Shown: positions 2,525 to 24,078 of the stretch, piece after piece
Numbering within the stretch: the first letter of the stretch is position 1
How the letters are laid out: the number at the start of each line of letters is the position of its first letter
From: a virus
Virus record (IMG/VR): IMGVR_UViG_3300025122_000114
Span: 1-27,911 of that record
Direction: 5' to 3' (one strand)
DNA: 27,911 bases
Translations under genes and position numbers: made by a program
The notes under the pieces: generated by a model
Told to the model about the DNA's origin: nothing
The model's database searches: none
What the model saw: only the letters and a program-made list of their open reading frames with translations

Positions 2525-3904
2525 TTAGCCTCCGTTATTCTTTTTAAACTTCTTATACTTCTCAACCAAATTCTCTTTTTGTTTTTTAGCGCTAACTTCC
2601 ACGAAGGCATCTTCTTCGGAGGCCTCCAATACCTTGATGCAAACATTCGCCGTATCCATAAAAAGAGGATAGACCAAGCCATCAGGGCCGTTACGATTCT
2701 TCGCTATAAACACTCTGCCACCATTTGTTGTTTTATCTTCAATTGTGCGAGAGATAGTAAAAATAAAATCTGCAACGAAGCACTTGTTAAATGCTTCGGA
2801 GATTGACTCCATCGTTATCACTTCTGCATTTAATCCCGAGCGATTAGTCTGTGACGCGGTCCACACTGGGACCTCATACTCTGTCGCGATAGCTCGTAAT
2901 TCTTCATAGATAGACTCTAGCTCATTTCTCTTCTCTTTGAGATATCTTAGTGGGCGTAACAAATCACCATAATCAATGATAACCATATCTGGATCAACGT
3001 CGCGCATCTTCAGTTTTTCTAAGTGATTACGAATAGATTGAGTAGTCGCAGTCTTGGTGGGGTATTCTTTAATAATTAATTTCCCCGCAACGTCACTCAC
3101 TTCTTCATAGATTTTTTCTTTAAAGGTCGTTAGGTCCTTCAAAGCAATCTTAGTAAGGCAAGAATCATAGCGGGTTGCAACTACTGTATCCTGGAGTTCT
3201 AAAGTATAGTGGATAACAGTCTTACCCTCTTTCAAGGCCTGCGTTCCCAAATGAACGAGGGCCATTGACTTACCGGCACCAGTTGGGGCGATAACAACGC
3301 CCAATTCCTTTTGCCCCAACCCTCCCTTGCATACGTCATCAATCAACGGCCACCCAGTTGGGGTGGGATTACGAAAGCGTGGCTTAAATCGTTCTTCAAA
3401 ATCTTTCTTGTAATCATATCCTTCATCGCCATTTATCCCCAATTTAAGGGAATCATTAATAACCTGAGATATTTCATCAAATGATGAGTTTTGCAGAAGG
3501 CCAATAGATTTCACCATAGCAGATTTAAGGTTTTGTTTTTTACAAAAATCTAACGAAGTGTCTTTAATATATTCTACATCACTTACGGCAGTTATCTGGC
3601 TTCGGACATAATATTCCCGGGTTTGTTTTGCGGTCAGTTCATTCTCATTGTCAAGTTCCGAACGCAGAATAGTTTTCATTATATCGCGAGACGGATGGAC
3701 ACCGTACTTCTTGCGATAATCAAATATTTTGTTTAAAAATAATTTTAAGTAATTAAGTTCTAAAAAATTAACGTCCAGGACTTCTTCAATTTGATCTGCA
3801 AAAGAACGATCGTCCAGAATGACCATACAGAGCTTCTCCTGAAATGACTTCCCATATTTTGAGAAATTCATCGGCTCACCGTTTATTTTCATTGCTGTCC
3901 CCAT
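2525..3904 (-). CDS. DnaB/gp41-type replicative DNA helicase
   Basis: This is a ring helicase that would unwind the replication fork on the lagging strand. The 459-residue protein has an alpha-helical N-terminal region (about 1-160), then a RecA-type motor. The motor has Walker A APTGAGKS at 206-213, a catalytic-Glu strand HYTLEL at about 232-237, Walker B MVIIDYGDL at 307-315, and SQTNR at 351-355 as sensor. No primase domain is fused and no primase is in the window. Two starts are possible: ATG 3904, or ATG 3892 (MKINGE), which has GGGGA just upstream. The promoter at 3911-3939 would place the RNA start almost on ATG 3904, which favours 3892 or a leaderless message. The lysine-rich C-terminus (KKFKKNN) is probably disordered. 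Confidence 0.9.
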   Translation of the reverse strand: MGTAMKINGEPMNFSKYGKSFQEKLCMVILDDRSFADQIEEVLDVNFLELNYLKLFLNKIFDYRKKYGVHPSRDIMKTILRSELDNENELTAKQTREYYVRSQITAVSDVEYIKDTSLDFCKKQNLKSAMVKSIGLLQNSSFDEISQVINDSLKLGINGDEGYDYKKDFEERFKPRFRNPTPTGWPLIDDVCKGGLGQKELGVVIAPTGAGKSMALVHLGTQALKEGKTVIHYTLELQDTVVATRYDSCLTKIALKDLTTFKEKIYEEVSDVAGKLIIKEYPTKTATTQSIRNHLEKLKMRDVDPDMVIIDYGDLLRPLRYLKEKRNELESIYEELRAIATEYEVPVWTASQTNRSGLNAEVITMESISEAFNKCFVADFIFTISRTIEDKTTNGGRVFIAKNRNGPDGLVYPLFMDTANVCIKVLEASEEDAFVEVSAKKQKENLVEKYKKFKKNNGG

Positions 3905-3910
3905 TACCCG

Positions 3911-3939
3911 ATATTACTACTTCTGGAGTGCTTTGTCAA
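3911..3939 (-). promoter_or_regulatory. Sigma-70-type promoter before the helicase gene
   Basis: On the minus strand TTGACA (3934-3939) is followed by a 17-base spacer and TAATAT (3911-3916, four of six matches to TATAAT). The -35 lies inside the last codons of the exonuclease gene. Transcription would start at about 3904, on or just before the first possible helicase start codon. It is weaker at -10 than the other promoters in this set. Confidence 0.45.
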
Positions 3940-4882
3940 GACAAATACGGTTCATGGTTGCGTGAAGATCATCCCAATTGAAGACACCGAAGCCGTCCTG
4001 GTTCATCATACGGATAATCTCCGTCTTATTGTAATCGTATTCAAAGTTATTGAGGGCATAGTGTACCTTATCGCGGCACTGCAAAGATAGCGCGGGATTA
4101 TATAATTGCATGAGTTTGTAGTTCTCTATAATTACATCTCTGTACTCCAAAACGTTCGTGAAAAACTTAGCTTTTGAATCACTCTTGAGACAAAAATCAA
4201 AAATCTCCTGCAATGTCGCATCCTTATCTTCTCTAAGAAATTTTAAGTTTTTTGAAATACTTTTCAGGCCGGCCCGGGGGACACCCTTAAGATTGTCTGA
4301 GGGGTCCCCAGCTATAGCGCGAGCCATTGCAAAGTTTCGTGGATGAATATCAAAATCCTCCACAATATTAACCTGAGTATGCACCTTCTTTTGGATGGGA
4401 CGAAAGAGGACTGTCTCCCCATCACACAGCTGAAGGAAGTCCTTATCGCTAGACACAATCACCTTCTCCCAGCCGTCAAACTGCTCCATACCTGTGGCGT
4501 ATGCAATCACATCGTCGGCCTCCACTTCGTCGAAGCGAAGCTGGATGACAGGGAGTTCATTTAGATATTCAATCAATCGAAGCTGCTGCCACACCATATT
4601 GGAGCGCTGTTGCTCGTCGGTCATGTCAGTCTGTCGATTGACGCGGATTGGCTTTCTTCCCGCCTTGTAGTTCTTATTCTGTTCGCGGCGCTTGCGGCTG
4701 CCGCCAGGACCATCCCAGATAATCATTACAGTATCTGGCTTAATGTCTCGGCAGAGCTTCTGCAAGATGCCTAGGAAGCCCTTGAGACCCCCGATGGGCT
4801 GTCCGTGAGTAGACAGGCTCGGGTTGACGATAAACGCCCTGAAATAGGCGTTGAGAGCGTCAACGATCATTACTCTTTTCAT
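3917..4882 (-). CDS. 5'-3' exonuclease / flap nuclease (PIN-like, RNase H type)
   Basis: The protein belongs to the T5/T4 5'-nuclease family, which removes RNA primers and 5' flaps. The 321 residues carry the acidic two-metal site in the expected order: Asp8 (IVDALN), Asp57 (IIWDG), the cluster EVEADD at 119-124, SSDKD with Asp146 and Asp148, and GDPSDN at 192-197 followed by a helix-hairpin-helix-like KGVPRAGLKS. The region between 60 and 90 is basic and fits the helical arch. It has its own near-consensus promoter (4913-4941) and an AGGGGA ribosome site before ATG 4882, so it heads a transcript with the helicase and reductase genes. Confidence 0.92.
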   Translation of the reverse strand: MKRVMIVDALNAYFRAFIVNPSLSTHGQPIGGLKGFLGILQKLCRDIKPDTVMIIWDGPGGSRKRREQNKNYKAGRKPIRVNRQTDMTDEQQRSNMVWQQLRLIEYLNELPVIQLRFDEVEADDVIAYATGMEQFDGWEKVIVSSDKDFLQLCDGETVLFRPIQKKVHTQVNIVEDFDIHPRNFAMARAIAGDPSDNLKGVPRAGLKSISKNLKFLREDKDATLQEIFDFCLKSDSKAKFFTNVLEYRDVIIENYKLMQLYNPALSLQCRDKVHYALNNFEYDYNKTEIIRMMNQDGFGVFNWDDLHATMNRICLDKALQK

Positions 4883-4912
4883 GTGTATCCCCTAACGTAT
4901 GAAACTCCTATG

Positions 4913-4941
4913 AGTATACCTCACGGGAGCTTCAGTGTCAA
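4913..4941 (-). promoter_or_regulatory. Strong sigma-70-type promoter before the exonuclease gene
   Basis: TTGACA (4936-4941), an exact 17-base spacer, then TATACT (4913-4918), five of six for the -10. It is the only member of the set that lies fully between genes, about 30 bases upstream of the exonuclease ATG. It also lies just beyond the second copy of the recA-end repeat. Confidence 0.8.
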
Positions 4942-4952
4942 GGGTTGTTTTC

Positions 4953-4978
4953 TATTCTTTATCTACGTCGTAGAAATC
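4953..4978 (-). repeat. 26-base direct repeat, copy 2 (duplicate of the recA 3' end)
   Basis: These 26 bases are identical to 5433-5458 and lie exactly 480 bases from them. Read in the recA frame this copy still codes DFYDVDKE followed by a stop (TAG here, TAA in the recA copy). The 144-residue gene enters the copy in another frame and takes its own stop (4963-4965) from it. Confidence 0.95.
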
Positions 4979-5397
4979 AGCAGCTGCGGGGCCTGTTGGT
5001 ACTTTTTAAGAAGCATCTGAACCTGCCCCTGGAGAAACTGGCGCACTCGATCGTTCCGCGGGGCAAGAGCGACGTGCAGGGCAAGGTCACTGGGGAGATC
5101 ATTGCCTTGGGGGAGATTGTTGAGAATTTGGGCATCCTTAGTTTTGTCGAACGCGATGGCTATTCTGCTGGACAACGGGGTGTTGGGGTAAGCTGCGTCG
5201 ACAATGCTTAGAAAAGCTTTCAAACGAGCGTTGTCCTTGCGACTAATTGTTTGAATAGTTTGCTCGAAGCTTCCATCGGAAACGCCTGCTGAAGGGGCGG
5301 CGCCTGAGCGCGAAGGGTGGCCATAAATGCGGCGCGGGCGTTCTGCCTCTTTCACAAACTTTTCCCAGTTTTCCATTATAAGTTTCATATCAGACAT
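4963..5397 (-). CDS. Small unknown protein bracketed by direct repeats
   Basis: A 144-residue protein of unknown function. It begins MSDMKLIMENWEKFVKEAE. After that comes a low-complexity Ser/Gly/Pro stretch (about 25-42), then a largely helical region with AFLSIVDAAYP and VRQFLQGQVQMLLKKY. The last residues (ISTT) and the stop come from the copied recA end, so the original C-terminus may have been cut or replaced. The start has AGGAG about 10 bases upstream; the Met at codon 4 is an alternative. It lies between recA and the exonuclease promoter. No catalytic motif or membrane segment is visible. I remember LIMENW-like N-termini in other phage proteins but cannot verify this. Confidence 0.75.
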   Translation of the reverse strand: MSDMKLIMENWEKFVKEAERPRRIYGHPSRSGAAPSAGVSDGSFEQTIQTISRKDNARLKAFLSIVDAAYPNTPLSSRIAIAFDKTKDAQILNNLPQGNDLPSDLALHVALAPRNDRVRQFLQGQVQMLLKKYQQAPQLLISTT

Positions 5398-5431
5398 CGC
5401 GCAGGTCTCCTAAGACGTATAATAAATAGTC

Positions 5432-6553
5432 TTATTCTTTATCTACGTCGTAGAAATCCTGGGCACTGCCTTCGCGTGTATCAAACTTACGAATGATCTG
5501 TTCATCCATGATCTCAAGCACTCGGGTTTTGAACTTCTTGTCTTTAAGTTTTTCAATCCAATGGGCGCTCTGGAACTTCTCTTCCTTACCGTCCTTGTGG
5601 ACCAGCGAGAACCAAGCGCCGGCTTGCTTGAGATTGTCGGAGCCTTTGATTGCTTCCAACCAACTCTCCTGATCCTGGATGCCAACCTCTTCGGTGCCCC
5701 ATAGAATCTTGAACGCGCAATTGCGTCCCTGCGTGCCGAAGCGAGACTTCTCAAGCTTGACCTTCACCTCGGAGCCGATGCGGAAACCACTTTCATCCTC
5801 GATGAAAGCAGACTTGGCCTTGCGCCCCGTCAGCCAGATGCGCAGAGAATATACATAATGCATGGCCTTTCCGCCCGGAGTAATGAACGGTGTCGTCATT
5901 GCGACGATGCGTGCGTTCGGTCCCTGTGGAATATTCGTCTTCAACTGGTTGAGAACCAGGAAGGCAGACTTCGTATTCGCAATCGGGATTGTCAGCTTGG
6001 ACATTCCCTTCGAGAGAATGCGGGCCTTCATGGCCATGGTGGATTGAGGATTGAAATCCCCCTCCACATCAGAAACGGTAGGAGTCAGAGCCAGCGAGTC
6101 CCAGATAAACAGAGTCCTCTCGGCTCCAGAGTTTAGAATACTCTCAACAGTCTCTAGAACGTGCTCCACCGACTGAGCCTGAACGTAAATGAGTTCGTCA
6201 AGATTACATCCAGTTCGTTCTAGGAATCCTGGGTCAATCGCTGACTCTGAATCCATATATATTACCGTCATGCCCATCTTCTGGGCGTTTGCTGCTACTT
6301 GCGCAGCCATAAAAGATTTGCCGGTTGATTCCAAGCCGGCAATCTCTGTGAACTTGCCAATTGGGACACCCCCCAATTTCCCCCGACACACAATAGAATC
6401 CAACCAGCGCGAGCCGGTTGGAATCCATTCTTTCACCTCTGTCGGGTTAGCCTTCTTGAGGTTATGTGCAACGTCAAGGCCAGACGTTTTATTGATAAGT
6501 GTTCTCAGCCCATCAATTGAAATCTTGCCTGCCTTGGATTTGCTCTTAGCCAT
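5432..6553 (-). CDS. recA: RecA/UvsX-like recombinase
   Basis: A strand-exchange ATPase for recombination-dependent replication and repair. The 373 residues include Walker A GLESTGKS at 73-80, the strand VIYMDSESA with the catalytic-type Glu (about 97-105), Walker B LFIWDSL at 148-154, NQLKTN (about 202-207) and the DNA-binding-loop region with PGGKA at 226-230. The length is close to both bacterial RecA and T4 UvsX; the Walker A is closer to RecA's GPESSGKT. The acidic C-terminus DFYDVDKE resembles the regulatory acidic tail of RecA. The same tail-coding bases are repeated 480 bases downstream. The start lies 3 bases after the preceding gene's stop, with only a weak AGG site, so translation is probably coupled. 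Confidence 0.93.
   Translation of the reverse strand: MAKSKSKAGKISIDGLRTLINKTSGLDVAHNLKKANPTEVKEWIPTGSRWLDSIVCRGKLGGVPIGKFTEIAGLESTGKSFMAAQVAANAQKMGMTVIYMDSESAIDPGFLERTGCNLDELIYVQAQSVEHVLETVESILNSGAERTLFIWDSLALTPTVSDVEGDFNPQSTMAMKARILSKGMSKLTIPIANTKSAFLVLNQLKTNIPQGPNARIVAMTTPFITPGGKAMHYVYSLRIWLTGRKAKSAFIEDESGFRIGSEVKVKLEKSRFGTQGRNCAFKILWGTEEVGIQDQESWLEAIKGSDNLKQAGAWFSLVHKDGKEEKFQSAHWIEKLKDKKFKTRVLEIMDEQIIRKFDTREGSAQDFYDVDKE
5433..5458 (-). repeat. 26-base direct repeat, copy 1 (native recA 3' end)
   Basis: This copy encodes the last residues of RecA (DFYDVDKE) and part of its stop. It is identical to 4953-4978. The bases immediately outside the 26-base match differ on both sides. Confidence 0.95.
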
Positions 6554-6556
6554 TCT

Positions 6557-7042
6557 TTAGCCTAGGGTCAATAATCCGTTGTCAGTTTGAACAACGACAT
6601 CAAAGCCAGCCACAAAATTGGCTGCATTGCTCCCGAGAGCATACAGCTCGTGTGCGCGTACTTTAACGTTGGCCGCAATCTCACAGGTACCACGCTTATG
6701 GTCATGACGCTCAGTTGAAATGGTGAGAAGATCCCATTGATAGGCTTCCTGTTGAAGCGTTTCCGTCAGATATCCTTCAAACCATCCTTCGCGGTCGTAA
6801 TCTTCCAGAAGATCGTTGTCTCGCATTTCTGCTAGAATATCGTCTTCATAACGTGAATAAACCGTTATATTTGGAGTCGCCAACAGGCGCGCAAGCATGG
6901 CGGCGGTGTCAGTTTCTCCCAGAGCACTCTCCACATAATCATCCGAAATGTGCCAGACGCCGGCGTGGTCTTCATAATTGAGATAAACAAAATCATCTCC
7001 ATTTACATTTAACCCCTTAAGGGTTTCTATAATATTTCCCAT
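6557..7042 (-). CDS. Unknown acidic protein upstream of recA
   Basis: A 161-residue acidic protein that I do not recognise. It has no signal peptide or membrane segment. Aromatic and acidic residues dominate the middle (YSRYEDDILAEMRDNDLLED, then WFEGYLTET at about 107-115). The C-terminal part looks like beta strands (IAANVKVRAHELYAL, FVAGFDVVVQTDNGLLTL). AAAGAAG precedes the ATG. It sits between the Hc1-like gene and recA, probably in the transcript that begins at the 7317-7345 promoter. A role as a small early, host-interacting or replication-accessory protein is only a guess from position. Confidence 0.8.
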   Translation of the reverse strand: MGNIIETLKGLNVNGDDFVYLNYEDHAGVWHISDDYVESALGETDTAAMLARLLATPNITVYSRYEDDILAEMRDNDLLEDYDREGWFEGYLTETLQQEAYQWDLLTISTERHDHKRGTCEIAANVKVRAHELYALGSNAANFVAGFDVVVQTDNGLLTLG

Positions 7043-7316: not shown

Positions 7317-7345
7317 ACTATAACACTTTTTTACTTTAATGTCAA
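7317..7345 (-). promoter_or_regulatory. Strong sigma-70-type promoter before the Hc1-like gene
   Basis: TTGACA (7340-7345), a 17-base AT-rich spacer, TATAGT (7317-7322). The -35 lies within the last codons of the DUF262-type gene and the -10 just after its stop. The predicted RNA start is at about 7310, giving a leader of about 55 bases that holds the 34-base repeat. Confidence 0.8.
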
Positions 7346-8530
7346 CCTAAATCTGTTGGCAGTAGTAGCTAGCTCTGCGACAAGAGCGTCCCGTCGGGCT
7401 ATCCGAGCCGGAATCTCATGCGGCAGTTCAACGCGGCGATGATAATAATTGGAAACTTGAGGTGAGGGAAGCCCCTGGTTCTGCGCAGCGAGTTCGTCTT
7501 GCGCATACTGAGCTTTAGAGTCCATCTTAAGTTTCTCATCGATCTTTATTACCTCGCGATAAAACTGCTTAAGCGACTGAATAGTCTGACCACTATCATG
7601 AGCGTATTGAACCGCCCACAGAAGGGCCCACACCTCATTCTTGTCCGTCTTCTCGTTCTGCGCAGCAACTGCGCGCATGGTAGTATCAATTAAATCAGAA
7701 GCCCTAGACATTTCGGCAGTGTCGTAGCAACTATGAGCCATGTCAAAAGCATCATTCCCAATTCTATAAAAAATATCTAAATCCTTGGACCTAAAACTAA
7801 AGGGAGTCTGTACGTCCTCGGCATTCGGTCCCACCTTCTGAACGACCCCCATGGTCATCTTGGTAATTAATTCATTATCTTTCATGCGAGAAATATCCCC
7901 TTTAGTGTGTAGTTTGGTCGCGGCGCCAGACTTTTGATATTTCTGTGCACGGGTCTCCACCCAAACACTAAGAGGGGTGGGCTCAGCATGGCGTCTCTCT
8001 TGGGCCTTAAGGGGGCAGCCCCCATTATAACTTAGAAAAAACTTACGTAGATCATTAGAGGTGATTTCCTCTACAACTGCGACTGAAATTAGGGCGCCCG
8101 TGTTAAGCAGGTCACGCACACGCTGCGGTAGTTCATCAAAAGTGTGATTTGCGATTGTGTGCGTTTTGCCATCTGCGTCGCTCATGGTGCCCTTATAGTG
8201 TATATCGTTGCTCGCGAATTCATTCAAACAGAAGGTACGATTCTGGCCGTCCAATGACAAATATTTATATCCGGCGCTCGAGATGTCCTGAAAATATTCA
8301 TGCGAACGATTATCAGAGGGGTCCATCGCCTGACTGTACTCCAAACATGCGGCGACATCTGCCACCACAATATTCTGGTGTCGGACCCAGTTTTGAGAAA
8401 GACTGTGTAGATACTCTCTCTTATCTGCAAGATCCCAAACCTTGCGGCGCTGGAATCTCTTGTCTACTTTTACAGTAGCGTCATTAAACTTTCTTACGAA
8501 AGATCGTAAAGACATTGGTGGTTTACTCAT
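7331..8530 (-). CDS. DUF262-type (GmrSD/ParB-like fold) protein
   Basis: A 399-residue protein. Its N-terminal half fits the DUF262 family, known from the GmrS half of GmrSD type IV restriction enzymes and related ParB-fold proteins. It has KRFQRRKVW at about 24-32 (family 'fQR.yvW'), YLSLDGQNRTFCLNEF at about 90-105 (family 'lDGqQRl.tl..f'), and FFLSYNGGCPLKAQERRHA at 164-182 (family 'F.riN.gg.pL...E.r.a'). The C-terminal half is helical and unassigned; I see no HNH nuclease motif. In GmrSD this domain binds or hydrolyses nucleotides. In a phage it could serve modification, anti-restriction or nucleotide-sensing functions, none shown. A direct repeat flanks it on both sides. GAGAGG lies upstream of the ATG. 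Confidence 0.75.
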   Translation of the reverse strand: MSKPPMSLRSFVRKFNDATVKVDKRFQRRKVWDLADKREYLHSLSQNWVRHQNIVVADVAACLEYSQAMDPSDNRSHEYFQDISSAGYKYLSLDGQNRTFCLNEFASNDIHYKGTMSDADGKTHTIANHTFDELPQRVRDLLNTGALISVAVVEEITSNDLRKFFLSYNGGCPLKAQERRHAEPTPLSVWVETRAQKYQKSGAATKLHTKGDISRMKDNELITKMTMGVVQKVGPNAEDVQTPFSFRSKDLDIFYRIGNDAFDMAHSCYDTAEMSRASDLIDTTMRAVAAQNEKTDKNEVWALLWAVQYAHDSGQTIQSLKQFYREVIKIDEKLKMDSKAQYAQDELAAQNQGLPSPQVSNYYHRRVELPHEIPARIARRDALVAELATTANRFRLTLK

Positions 8531-21711: not shown

Positions 21712-24078
21712 TTATGCGTTGGGGTCGTAATACCCGCGCGAATTACTCCAGCGAAGGCCCCCTTCATTAATGACTCGCTCGCCAGTCTCGGGATCTGTGT
21801 GAGATGGGGGCACACACGAATTACCGATGCAATTAGGGTTACTTCCCATGCCGGGGGGATCCGGCTCTCCTGGCGTTGAACCTGCTGGATCTGAATTAGT
21901 GTTGCTGGCGCCGTTGCCACTCTGGTACTGGTCGTCACCACCAAGCTGACCACCAAGAGACTCTTGGGTAGCCTGATCGGCTAGCGAGCCTCCGGAGCCT
22001 TGGCCTGGTTGCTGCTCCAGCAATGCGTCAGTGCGGCCATATGCCTCGTCCACTTGATCTTGAGTCATGCCGCCGGGACCGGGGACAATCTCGTCATTAT
22101 CCCAGTCGTCGCCGCTGAGCATGTCAAGATCCTGGGGATCTGCGGAGCTTTCGCTGGTCGGACCATCCATCGTAGCATAGTCAGCAAACTCGTCATCGAT
22201 GTCATACCTATCCGAAATCTCCTGCATCGGAGAAGACGGACCCACGATCTGTTGCTGCTGCTCTGGCGTGAGCCCTGGCTCGTATGGTTCGCCCGACGGC
22301 GCGAACTGAGCCAACTCCCGCTCTTCGGGCGTCATGGCAAGAATATCGGCAGGATCTTGGCCAGAGGCCGCCAGCCGCTCGGCGACGGCCCGGTCTTCAT
22401 CAGACATATTCTGAATCTGCTGGGTGGTCTCAAAGTCCTCGTTAAACTCTTGCACTTCGGGGCTCTCGGCCCGGGCATGTTCACCCGCGACGTCCAAGTC
22501 TAAGGCCGCCATATCGCGCTCTTCGGGCGTCATGGCAAGAATATCGGCAGGATCTTGGCCGGAGGCCGCCAACTGCTGCGCATTGGCTCGGTCTTCATCA
22601 GACATATTCTGGATATCCTGGGTGTTCTGAAAGTCCTCGTTAAACTCTTGCACTTCGGGGCTCTCGGCCCGGGCCTGTTCGGCTGCGGCATCGGCTGCAG
22701 CCTTTGCGGCTGCCTCCTCTTCTGCGGCTTTAGCTGCTGCCTCTTCGGCAATCTGTTGAGCCTTGGTTTTAAGCAACGGTTCCAGCATGCCTGGACGTTT
22801 GTCTGGGGCCGTGCCATCAGCCTTCCCCATCACCTTATCAACTTTCTTATCGCGGGCGCCTAGGCGTTTTGCCGTCCGGTCGCTGATAGATCTTCGCAGC
22901 TTCGCCTTCGCCTCGTTCGCAAAGGGCTTTTGTTCACCTTCGGCATCAACACCAAGAGCGTCAGATTTAACAAAGAAGTTGGGGTACCTTGCATAAGTAT
23001 CAGCCAAATTCCATGCTAAATTGCGTGCATTAACACCGGGCCCGGGGACCCCGACCGTATAGTTGGCCGGGTCGGTGTCCTTGTCGTCGCGAGTCAGGCG
23101 CTTCGATTTCTGACTAACATAAGCTTCATAACTATAGCCCGAGAAAGCAGATCCGGCTGGCCTCAATGTTAAGGTAGTCATTAGAAATGAACTCCCTTCA
23201 TACGAGTATTCTCCAAAGGCGATATTAGTAACGTACGGCTGCAAAATTTTATGGATTCCAATAGGAACTGCATCCATAAACTCTGGTGGACTGAGTGCCG
23301 GTATTCCGGTATACGGATCTGGACGCGCTCCCATATCTAGAATGGTAAGAATGCGTGAGGCCTTAGGAAGGACCTCTCCCCAAATGGCCTCAGGAAACAG
23401 AGGAACCGCAAGGCCGCCGTCGGAAAGGTTGTTTTTCTGAGCTAGCTGAAATACCAAATTCATAGAAAAATGTAAATCATCCCTAACGGTGCTCACCAAA
23501 GTTATGGTTGCGTCATTTAATTTAGCGGTGGCGTCTCTGATTTGAGCAAAGGTCTCCTTACCGCCTGAGATCATGCCGTCAGGAACATTGCTTCCATAAC
23601 TAGGTGGAGTAAAAGAAGCTACAATATAAGTTTGAGGGCGAACCTTGAGATACTTGGCGACCAACGCCTTACGCGTTTTCTCGGATCTAACCCTAAGGCG
23701 CTTGCGACCAGAAGTGTTAGAACTGGGCGATTTCTCTTTTTTCGACGCGTCGGATGGCTTCTCACCAAGACTCTTTTTCCTTCGTCTTTTGGCGGCATTG
23801 CGGAACCTGTCGCGGATGTTCTGTTGAGTAGCTCCGGAGGAGCCCGCAGTCACGGTCCCTTTGGGATTCAGTATCTTTTTTAGTGCTCTGGTGTCATAAA
23901 CCCCGCTGCCCTCCGCGGGCATATAAACAGGGAAAGAACATAAAAATCTATGTTGCTGTTTGGGCTCTAACCAATAATCCGACCAGTCGGACTGAACATC
24001 TGTGGGATAGTCTATACCCGGAATAGACGCGTTTGCTCTCGTGGCAACGGAAACGTAGTTTGACTTGGCGGTGGCCAT
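21712..24078 (-). CDS. Tail tube-like protein with long disordered repetitive tail
   Basis: A 788-residue protein. The first 335 residues resemble the gp19-type tube protein encoded just upstream: WLEPKQQHRFLCSFP (38-50) parallels that protein's EPKRSHRFLVTFDLP, and PYVTNIAFGEYSYEGSSFL parallels NPWVTSIAYGTLDYSDEAL. A very basic segment (about 90-142, with KRRRKK and GRKRLRVR) is inserted in the N-terminal part. From about 385 on it is low-complexity: a Lys/Arg region, an Ala/Glu helix (about 440-466), two copies of a 54-residue unit (467-520 and 533-586), then Gly/Ser/Asp/Gln-rich sequence ending in a small CIGNSC and a GYYDPNA tail. It may be the tube terminator or baseplate-proximal tube ring (gp54-like position); that is inference. 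GGAGG precedes ATG 24078. Confidence 0.72.
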   Translation of the reverse strand: MATAKSNYVSVATRANASIPGIDYPTDVQSDWSDYWLEPKQQHRFLCSFPVYMPAEGSGVYDTRALKKILNPKGTVTAGSSGATQQNIRDRFRNAAKRRRKKSLGEKPSDASKKEKSPSSNTSGRKRLRVRSEKTRKALVAKYLKVRPQTYIVASFTPPSYGSNVPDGMISGGKETFAQIRDATAKLNDATITLVSTVRDDLHFSMNLVFQLAQKNNLSDGGLAVPLFPEAIWGEVLPKASRILTILDMGARPDPYTGIPALSPPEFMDAVPIGIHKILQPYVTNIAFGEYSYEGSSFLMTTLTLRPAGSAFSGYSYEAYVSQKSKRLTRDDKDTDPANYTVGVPGPGVNARNLAWNLADTYARYPNFFVKSDALGVDAEGEQKPFANEAKAKLRRSISDRTAKRLGARDKKVDKVMGKADGTAPDKRPGMLEPLLKTKAQQIAEEAAAKAAEEEAAAKAAADAAAEQARAESPEVQEFNEDFQNTQDIQNMSDEDRANAQQLAASGQDPADILAMTPEERDMAALDLDVAGEHARAESPEVQEFNEDFETTQQIQNMSDEDRAVAERLAASGQDPADILAMTPEERELAQFAPSGEPYEPGLTPEQQQQIVGPSSPMQEISDRYDIDDEFADYATMDGPTSESSADPQDLDMLSGDDWDNDEIVPGPGGMTQDQVDEAYGRTDALLEQQPGQGSGGSLADQATQESLGGQLGGDDQYQSGNGASNTNSDPAGSTPGEPDPPGMGSNPNCIGNSCVPPSHTDPETGERVINEGGLRWSNSRGYYDPNA
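22321..22482 (-). repeat. 162-base in-gene repeat, second copy
   Basis: Near-identical to 22519-22680 with a start-to-start distance of 198 bases (66 codons). Both encode ESPEVQEFNEDF, QNMSDEDRA, AASGQDPADILAMTPEER. Changes between copies include NTQD to TTQQ and NAQQ to VAER. Confidence 0.9.
22519..22680 (-). repeat. 162-base in-gene repeat, first copy
   Basis: First copy in reading order of the unit described at 22321-22482, encoding residues about 467-520 of the tube-like protein. A 36-base spacer (LDLDVAGEH region) separates it from the second copy. Confidence 0.9.

Follow-up and report, generated by a model that had tools for sequence, protein, structure and literature searches.

A small gene between recA and an exonuclease gene, with the last bases of recA repeated exactly beyond it, raises the question of how the gene came to be there and what its product might do. 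The DNA analyzed here, referred to as the window, is a 27.9-kb (27,911 nt) virus record in which the genes in question lie on the minus strand, in the order recA, 144-aa ORF, 5'-3' exonuclease. A DnaB-type helicase gene neighbors this region and a tail sheath gene lies farther away. The features are listed in Table 1.

Table 1. Features of the recA-exonuclease junction in the window
Feature	Position	Strand	Matches
5'-3' exonuclease, right-hand core flank of the junction	3917..4882	-	PF02739 5_3_exonuc_N, E 3e-26; phrog_107
Exonuclease promoter, TTGACA-17-TATACT (4936-4941 / 4913-4918), overlapping a conserved covarying dyad	4913..4941	-
Repeat copy 2, 33-nt recA 3' end of another allele (GCTGCTGATTTC...TAG), putative crossover footprint	4952..4984	-
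144-aa cassette gene, MSDMKLIMENWEKFVKE... to QLLISTT	4963..5397	-	none in Pfam, PHROG or PADLOC
Body of the 144-aa protein, residues 38-142	4972..5286	-	45% identity to the middle part of the 389-aa L083 gene
78-nt patch within the body	5209..5286	-	92% DNA identity to the L083 head-cluster gene
N-terminal tag MSDMKLIMENWEKFVKE, common to unrelated cassette bodies, resembling a capsid-targeting sequence	5347..5397	-
Cassette leader motif ACTATTTAT, immediately past the recA stop; candidate late promoter	5422..5430	-
Repeat copy 1, 3' end of the complete recA	5433..5458	-
recA, full-length UvsX-like recombinase, 373 aa, ending DFYDVDKE-TAA	5432..6553	-	Pfam PF00154 RecA, E 7.9e-38; phrog_97, E 1e-54

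The direct repeat and the empty junctions of relatives

The exact 26-nt direct repeat occupies positions 4953-4978 and 5433-5458, 480 nt from start to start, as the earlier note had described, and a whole-record search located it at no further place. Only two exact direct repeats in the window are longer. Since the longest exact repeat in simulations with a first-order Markov model (n = 100) was 18 nt, a chance origin is excluded. Copy 2, read in the recA frame, does encode DFYDVDKE and a stop, and the small gene takes its own C-terminus (QLLISTT*) from the repeat in another frame, both as previously claimed. The exonuclease promoter (TTGACA/TATACT) stands directly after copy 2. Elsewhere in the window, two exact 44-45-nt repeats with a 198-nt period (22319-22676) lie inside a 788-aa ORF (24078-21712, minus strand) and encode a repeated NMSDEDRA..LAASGQDPADILAMTPEER segment; a 399-aa ORF (7331-8530) matched GmrSD_N weakly (E 0.028) and phrog_2598 (E 1e-10).

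The viruses concerned form a group of T4-like viruses of microbes, uncultured and mostly from the sea, that exchange small genes, probably for proteins carried within the virus head, in the gap between these two replication genes. Searching with the recA protein yielded 80 loci (71-96% identity over the best segment; L numbers below), and a recA-tail scan added contigs. In the 68 complete junctions, which include a few near-copy contigs and are not all independent, the recA-exonuclease gap ranged from 51 to 2,813 nt. Nineteen were empty (51-79 nt), with the exonuclease promoter reached straight from the recA stop, and the remainder contained 237-2,813 nt of varied genes. The junction is a hypervariable hot spot where small genes come and go.

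The comparison of relatives that the earlier note had proposed found the same full-length gene in none of the retrieved junctions, so its counter-scenario, in which all relatives carry the 144-residue gene, does not apply. The empty site of L008 reads TAG-AAAACAACCCTTGACA, identical to the sequence after copy 2, and the window flanks joined at the repeat differ from this natural allele by 1 mismatch per 100 nt. Recombination between the copies had been predicted to leave recA followed by the exonuclease promoter, which is what L008 carries; with natural empty alleles of this kind, the 144-aa gene is a single-gene cassette whose presence behind recA is optional, as the earlier note had supposed.

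Genes for a dCMP deaminase and a Pyr_excise protein also lie close to the exonuclease. They follow a TTGACA promoter with its -10 element inside a dyad, so that promoter and dyad recur in front of these two genes as well as the exonuclease. No structure emerged from a MAFFT/RNAalifold consensus of the promoters, and the dyad pairs were counted directly instead: the arms covary around the -10 element, with two-sided changes in 7 of 13 pairs. The dyad at 4913-4941 could be an operator or a stem-loop. PeSLs are promoter and stem-loop elements linked to gene shuffling in T4-type phages; hyperplastic regions and PeSL mobile regulatory cassettes of these phages were reportedly described by Arbiol in 2010 and Comeau in 2014. 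The present locus resembles them in that genes are shuffled between conserved core flanks and a promoter with a dyad precedes different genes. It differs in that the exchanges are marked by a leader, a tag and the recA tail, and in that the scars are remnants of variable length.

Second recA tails at the junction

All loci were screened with a set of recA 3'-terminal sequences. Copy 2 proved to be a 33-nt match (100%) to the recA allele of L010, and the stretch leading into the core reads GCTGCT-GATTTC in copy 2 and relatives versus GCCCAG-GATTTC in the upstream recA. Besides the window (33 nt), an incomplete second recA tail stands at the junction in five other contigs, with lengths of 21 (L006), 26 (L126), 39 (L119), 57 (L158, as which the single contig behind L035 and L100 was re-read) and 76 nt (L014). 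All six tails end at the recA stop and all start at different points. L119 combines a complete recA of the DHYSLDNE clade with a remnant from the DFYDVDKE clade, which indicates an exchange between lineages. From the remnant onward, several of the sequences match other loci where that DNA comes straight after a complete recA: (i) L126 matches L032 (95% over 1,189 nt), (ii) L158 matches L036 (96% over 229 nt), (iii) L006 matches L005 (85% over 1,273 nt), and (iv) the window matches L008 (82% over 1,038 nt). The notion that the element rebuilds the recA 3' end has to be abandoned: the upstream copy belongs to a full gene, and copy 2 is the remnant of another phage's recA.

The attachment-site logic suggested by the earlier note would make the cassette a small integrative element that attaches at the 3' end of recA, the repeat serving as att core and an integrase acting in trans. 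A gene flanked by a direct repeat, an intact recA and natural empty sites are in keeping with this, and L008 has the form of an excision product; a crossover between phages predicts the same empty site. An att core should have a constant extent, whereas the tails have six different lengths; moreover, copy 2 comes from another allele, the L119 tail from another clade, and most filled junctions have no second tail. Searches of 49 junction proteins with Pfam and PHROGs detected no integrase, transposase or homing-endonuclease family, and no integron integrase. Given the variable tail lengths and the absence of any recombinase family from these proteins, an attachment site is disfavored, and we consider it very unlikely. 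Attachment at a tRNA or other RNA is rejected because Rfam and tRNA scans gave no match. As to an attC-type folded site, as in integron gene cassettes, the general Rfam models matched nothing in 3800-6600, and one imperfect, distant inverted repeat was seen in 4500-6000. The locus shares with integrative elements that regenerate a 3' end a partial gene end beyond the inserted gene and an intact target, and differs from them in having no fixed core and no integrase among the 49 proteins.

The identical 26-nt core of the two copies would also follow if the phage had duplicated its own recA tail in tandem and the gene had then been inserted between the copies. The different bases before the core (GCTGCT versus GCCCAG), the match of copy 2 to another allele over 33 nt and the foreign clade of the L119 tail make such a history very improbable. 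The same low probability is assigned to a metagenome assembly chimera, a concern raised by the window being an uncultured contig without reads: the two parts meet upstream of the repeat, where they have about 4 nt in common, and misassembly driven by the repeat would fall elsewhere; the same architecture recurs in contigs of other samples; and the 95% match of L126 to L032 continues through the remnant and on into the cassette. All three alternatives were set aside on these grounds.

The case for a recombination history is strong. The simplest one would be a single unequal crossover joining recA and the cassette to the recA tail and junction of another parent. Such a crossover, between two co-infecting phages, would be non-homologous and probably guided by microhomology. 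One parent would supply the full recA and the cassette, the other the last 33 nt of its own recA, an empty junction and the exonuclease. Since the phage needs a whole recA, the only survivors would be recombinants with a complete upstream copy, and in these the truncated second tail would remain. Homologous recombination would remove a long duplicate, which may account for the occurrence of short tails only. The same event in phages that already bear cassettes would stack them. Of the readings offered previously, short-homology capture comes nearest.

The small gene itself looks as if it had been cut by the crossover, a few recA-tail codons forming its new end. Its homologue runs past the point of truncation (NPQLIVSE... 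versus APQLLISTT* in the window), and CAGCTG is common to both at the join. We infer a GCTG microhomology from this homologue, which is only 45% identical in protein.

Phage mosaicism is attributed to illegitimate or homeologous recombination (PMC2327257). The junction shares with mosaicism non-homologous joints near gene ends and the selection of viable recombinants, and differs in that recombination recurs at a single site and leaves an oriented, recognizable scar.

Leader, tag and cassette protein

In almost all occupied junctions of the DFYDVDKE type, the motif RACTATTTAK follows the recA stop at once. In 10 relative contigs, it gave 47 matches on the coding strand versus 0 on the other, and at about half of 20 sites inspected it stood shortly upstream of an open start codon. 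Because of this strand bias and position, the leader may be a late promoter. The cassette type consists of the leader, a ribosome site, a short tag and an unrelated body. The tag occurs on unrelated proteins as MKLIMENWxxF..E or QLITENWRxFLxE; across 19 unrelated bodies its DNA is up to 92% identical, falling to about 26% farther on. Tagged genes are also present between the portal and prohead protease genes (L151, L152) and at another site of the L070 contig. The first gene of L126 and the deaminase and Pyr_excise genes carry no tag.

Three side observations concern tagged genes. In the other recA clade (junctions of L063-L067, L069 and L119), a second N-terminal tag, MKLSKQRLxxIIxEE, resembles the start of a 389-aa head-cluster protein (MRISRAHLDQLIEEE; L083 1030-2199). 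The tagged proteins of L005, L014, L028, L030, L158 and L174 contain an internal signal-peptide- or TAT-like stretch past the tag (GPAQAADV, SPAMANV, SRRGFLKNL), as if a delivered protein were then exported or inserted into the membrane. In L179 (G003:4500-8800), a second tagged-gene site follows a 92-aa ORF, GroES-like by eye, near the end of a ribonucleotide reductase gene.

No relative of the 144-aa protein was found among 50,697 phage records, and a search of phage records for the tag pair gave none; Pfam, PHROG and PADLOC gave no match to the protein, and a search of the genome contigs with its body returned no relative. AlphaFold, run on a two-row alignment, produced a mostly helical model of poor confidence (pLDDT 48). 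The kinship of the body is with the 389-aa L083 gene, which directly follows a Peptidase_S77 prohead protease gene.

In T4, an N-terminal capsid-targeting sequence (CTS) of 10-19 residues brings internal proteins into the prohead core, and the gp21 protease cuts after L/I-X-E, after which the proteins are injected (PMC9026906). The internal proteins of T-even phages are highly diverse defense proteins in which the targeting sequence alone is conserved (PMC3012670). A gp21-type prohead protease (PF03420) was detected in 9 of 13 relative contigs. Among 36 distinct tags, [LIVM]-x-E, a short motif, follows the tag tryptophan in 23, the window having V-K-E.

By analogy with T4, the tag is likely to target its protein to the capsid, and the 144-aa protein is probably a capsid-targeted, injected protein of this kind. 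The tag would act like the T4 CTS, so that the protein would become part of the prohead core, be processed by the prohead protease and enter the host along with the DNA. The resemblance to the T4 internal head proteins (IPI-III, Alt) lies in a conserved short N-terminal leader on unrelated, dispensable and highly variable proteins, in the kinship with head genes and, in part, in a Glu-containing cleavage-like motif. The tag also agrees with a CTS in position and length. Its sequence differs (MKLIMENW), as does the locus, recA-exonuclease. The protein therefore probably works like a T4 internal protein, a more limited claim than that it is one.

The same recombination history could have spread a tag that serves some other shared localization, or that is a mere recombination leader. 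The DNA of leader and tag is itself the conserved stretch and head placement is reasoned by analogy, which would suit this reading. It is nevertheless rather unlikely, as the tag is constrained at the protein level, including the LITENWR form with different upstream residues, tagged genes are found within the head operon, and the body is related to a gene of the head cluster. Hot spot, cassette type, crossover scar and capsid-targeted function, taken jointly, probably explain the locus.

Implications for the phage group

Hyperplastic loci and internal proteins have precedents; what is new here is the tag, its locus and the scars left by recA tails. The scars are oriented traces of how abundant uncultured phages captured genes, and the tagged genes point to a large, as yet unannotated set of probable injected proteins, recognizable by a tag of about 15 residues. 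We tentatively suggest a plug-in system for injected proteins, in which the portable leader may make captured coding fragments, including pieces of head genes, packaged and injectable, with the recA tail as a recurrent joint at which cassettes are stacked or swapped between lineages. If the tag is a capsid-targeting signal, the injected arsenal of these phages becomes searchable, and the T4 internal-protein idea reaches a locus and a phage group for which no earlier description was found in the literature searched.
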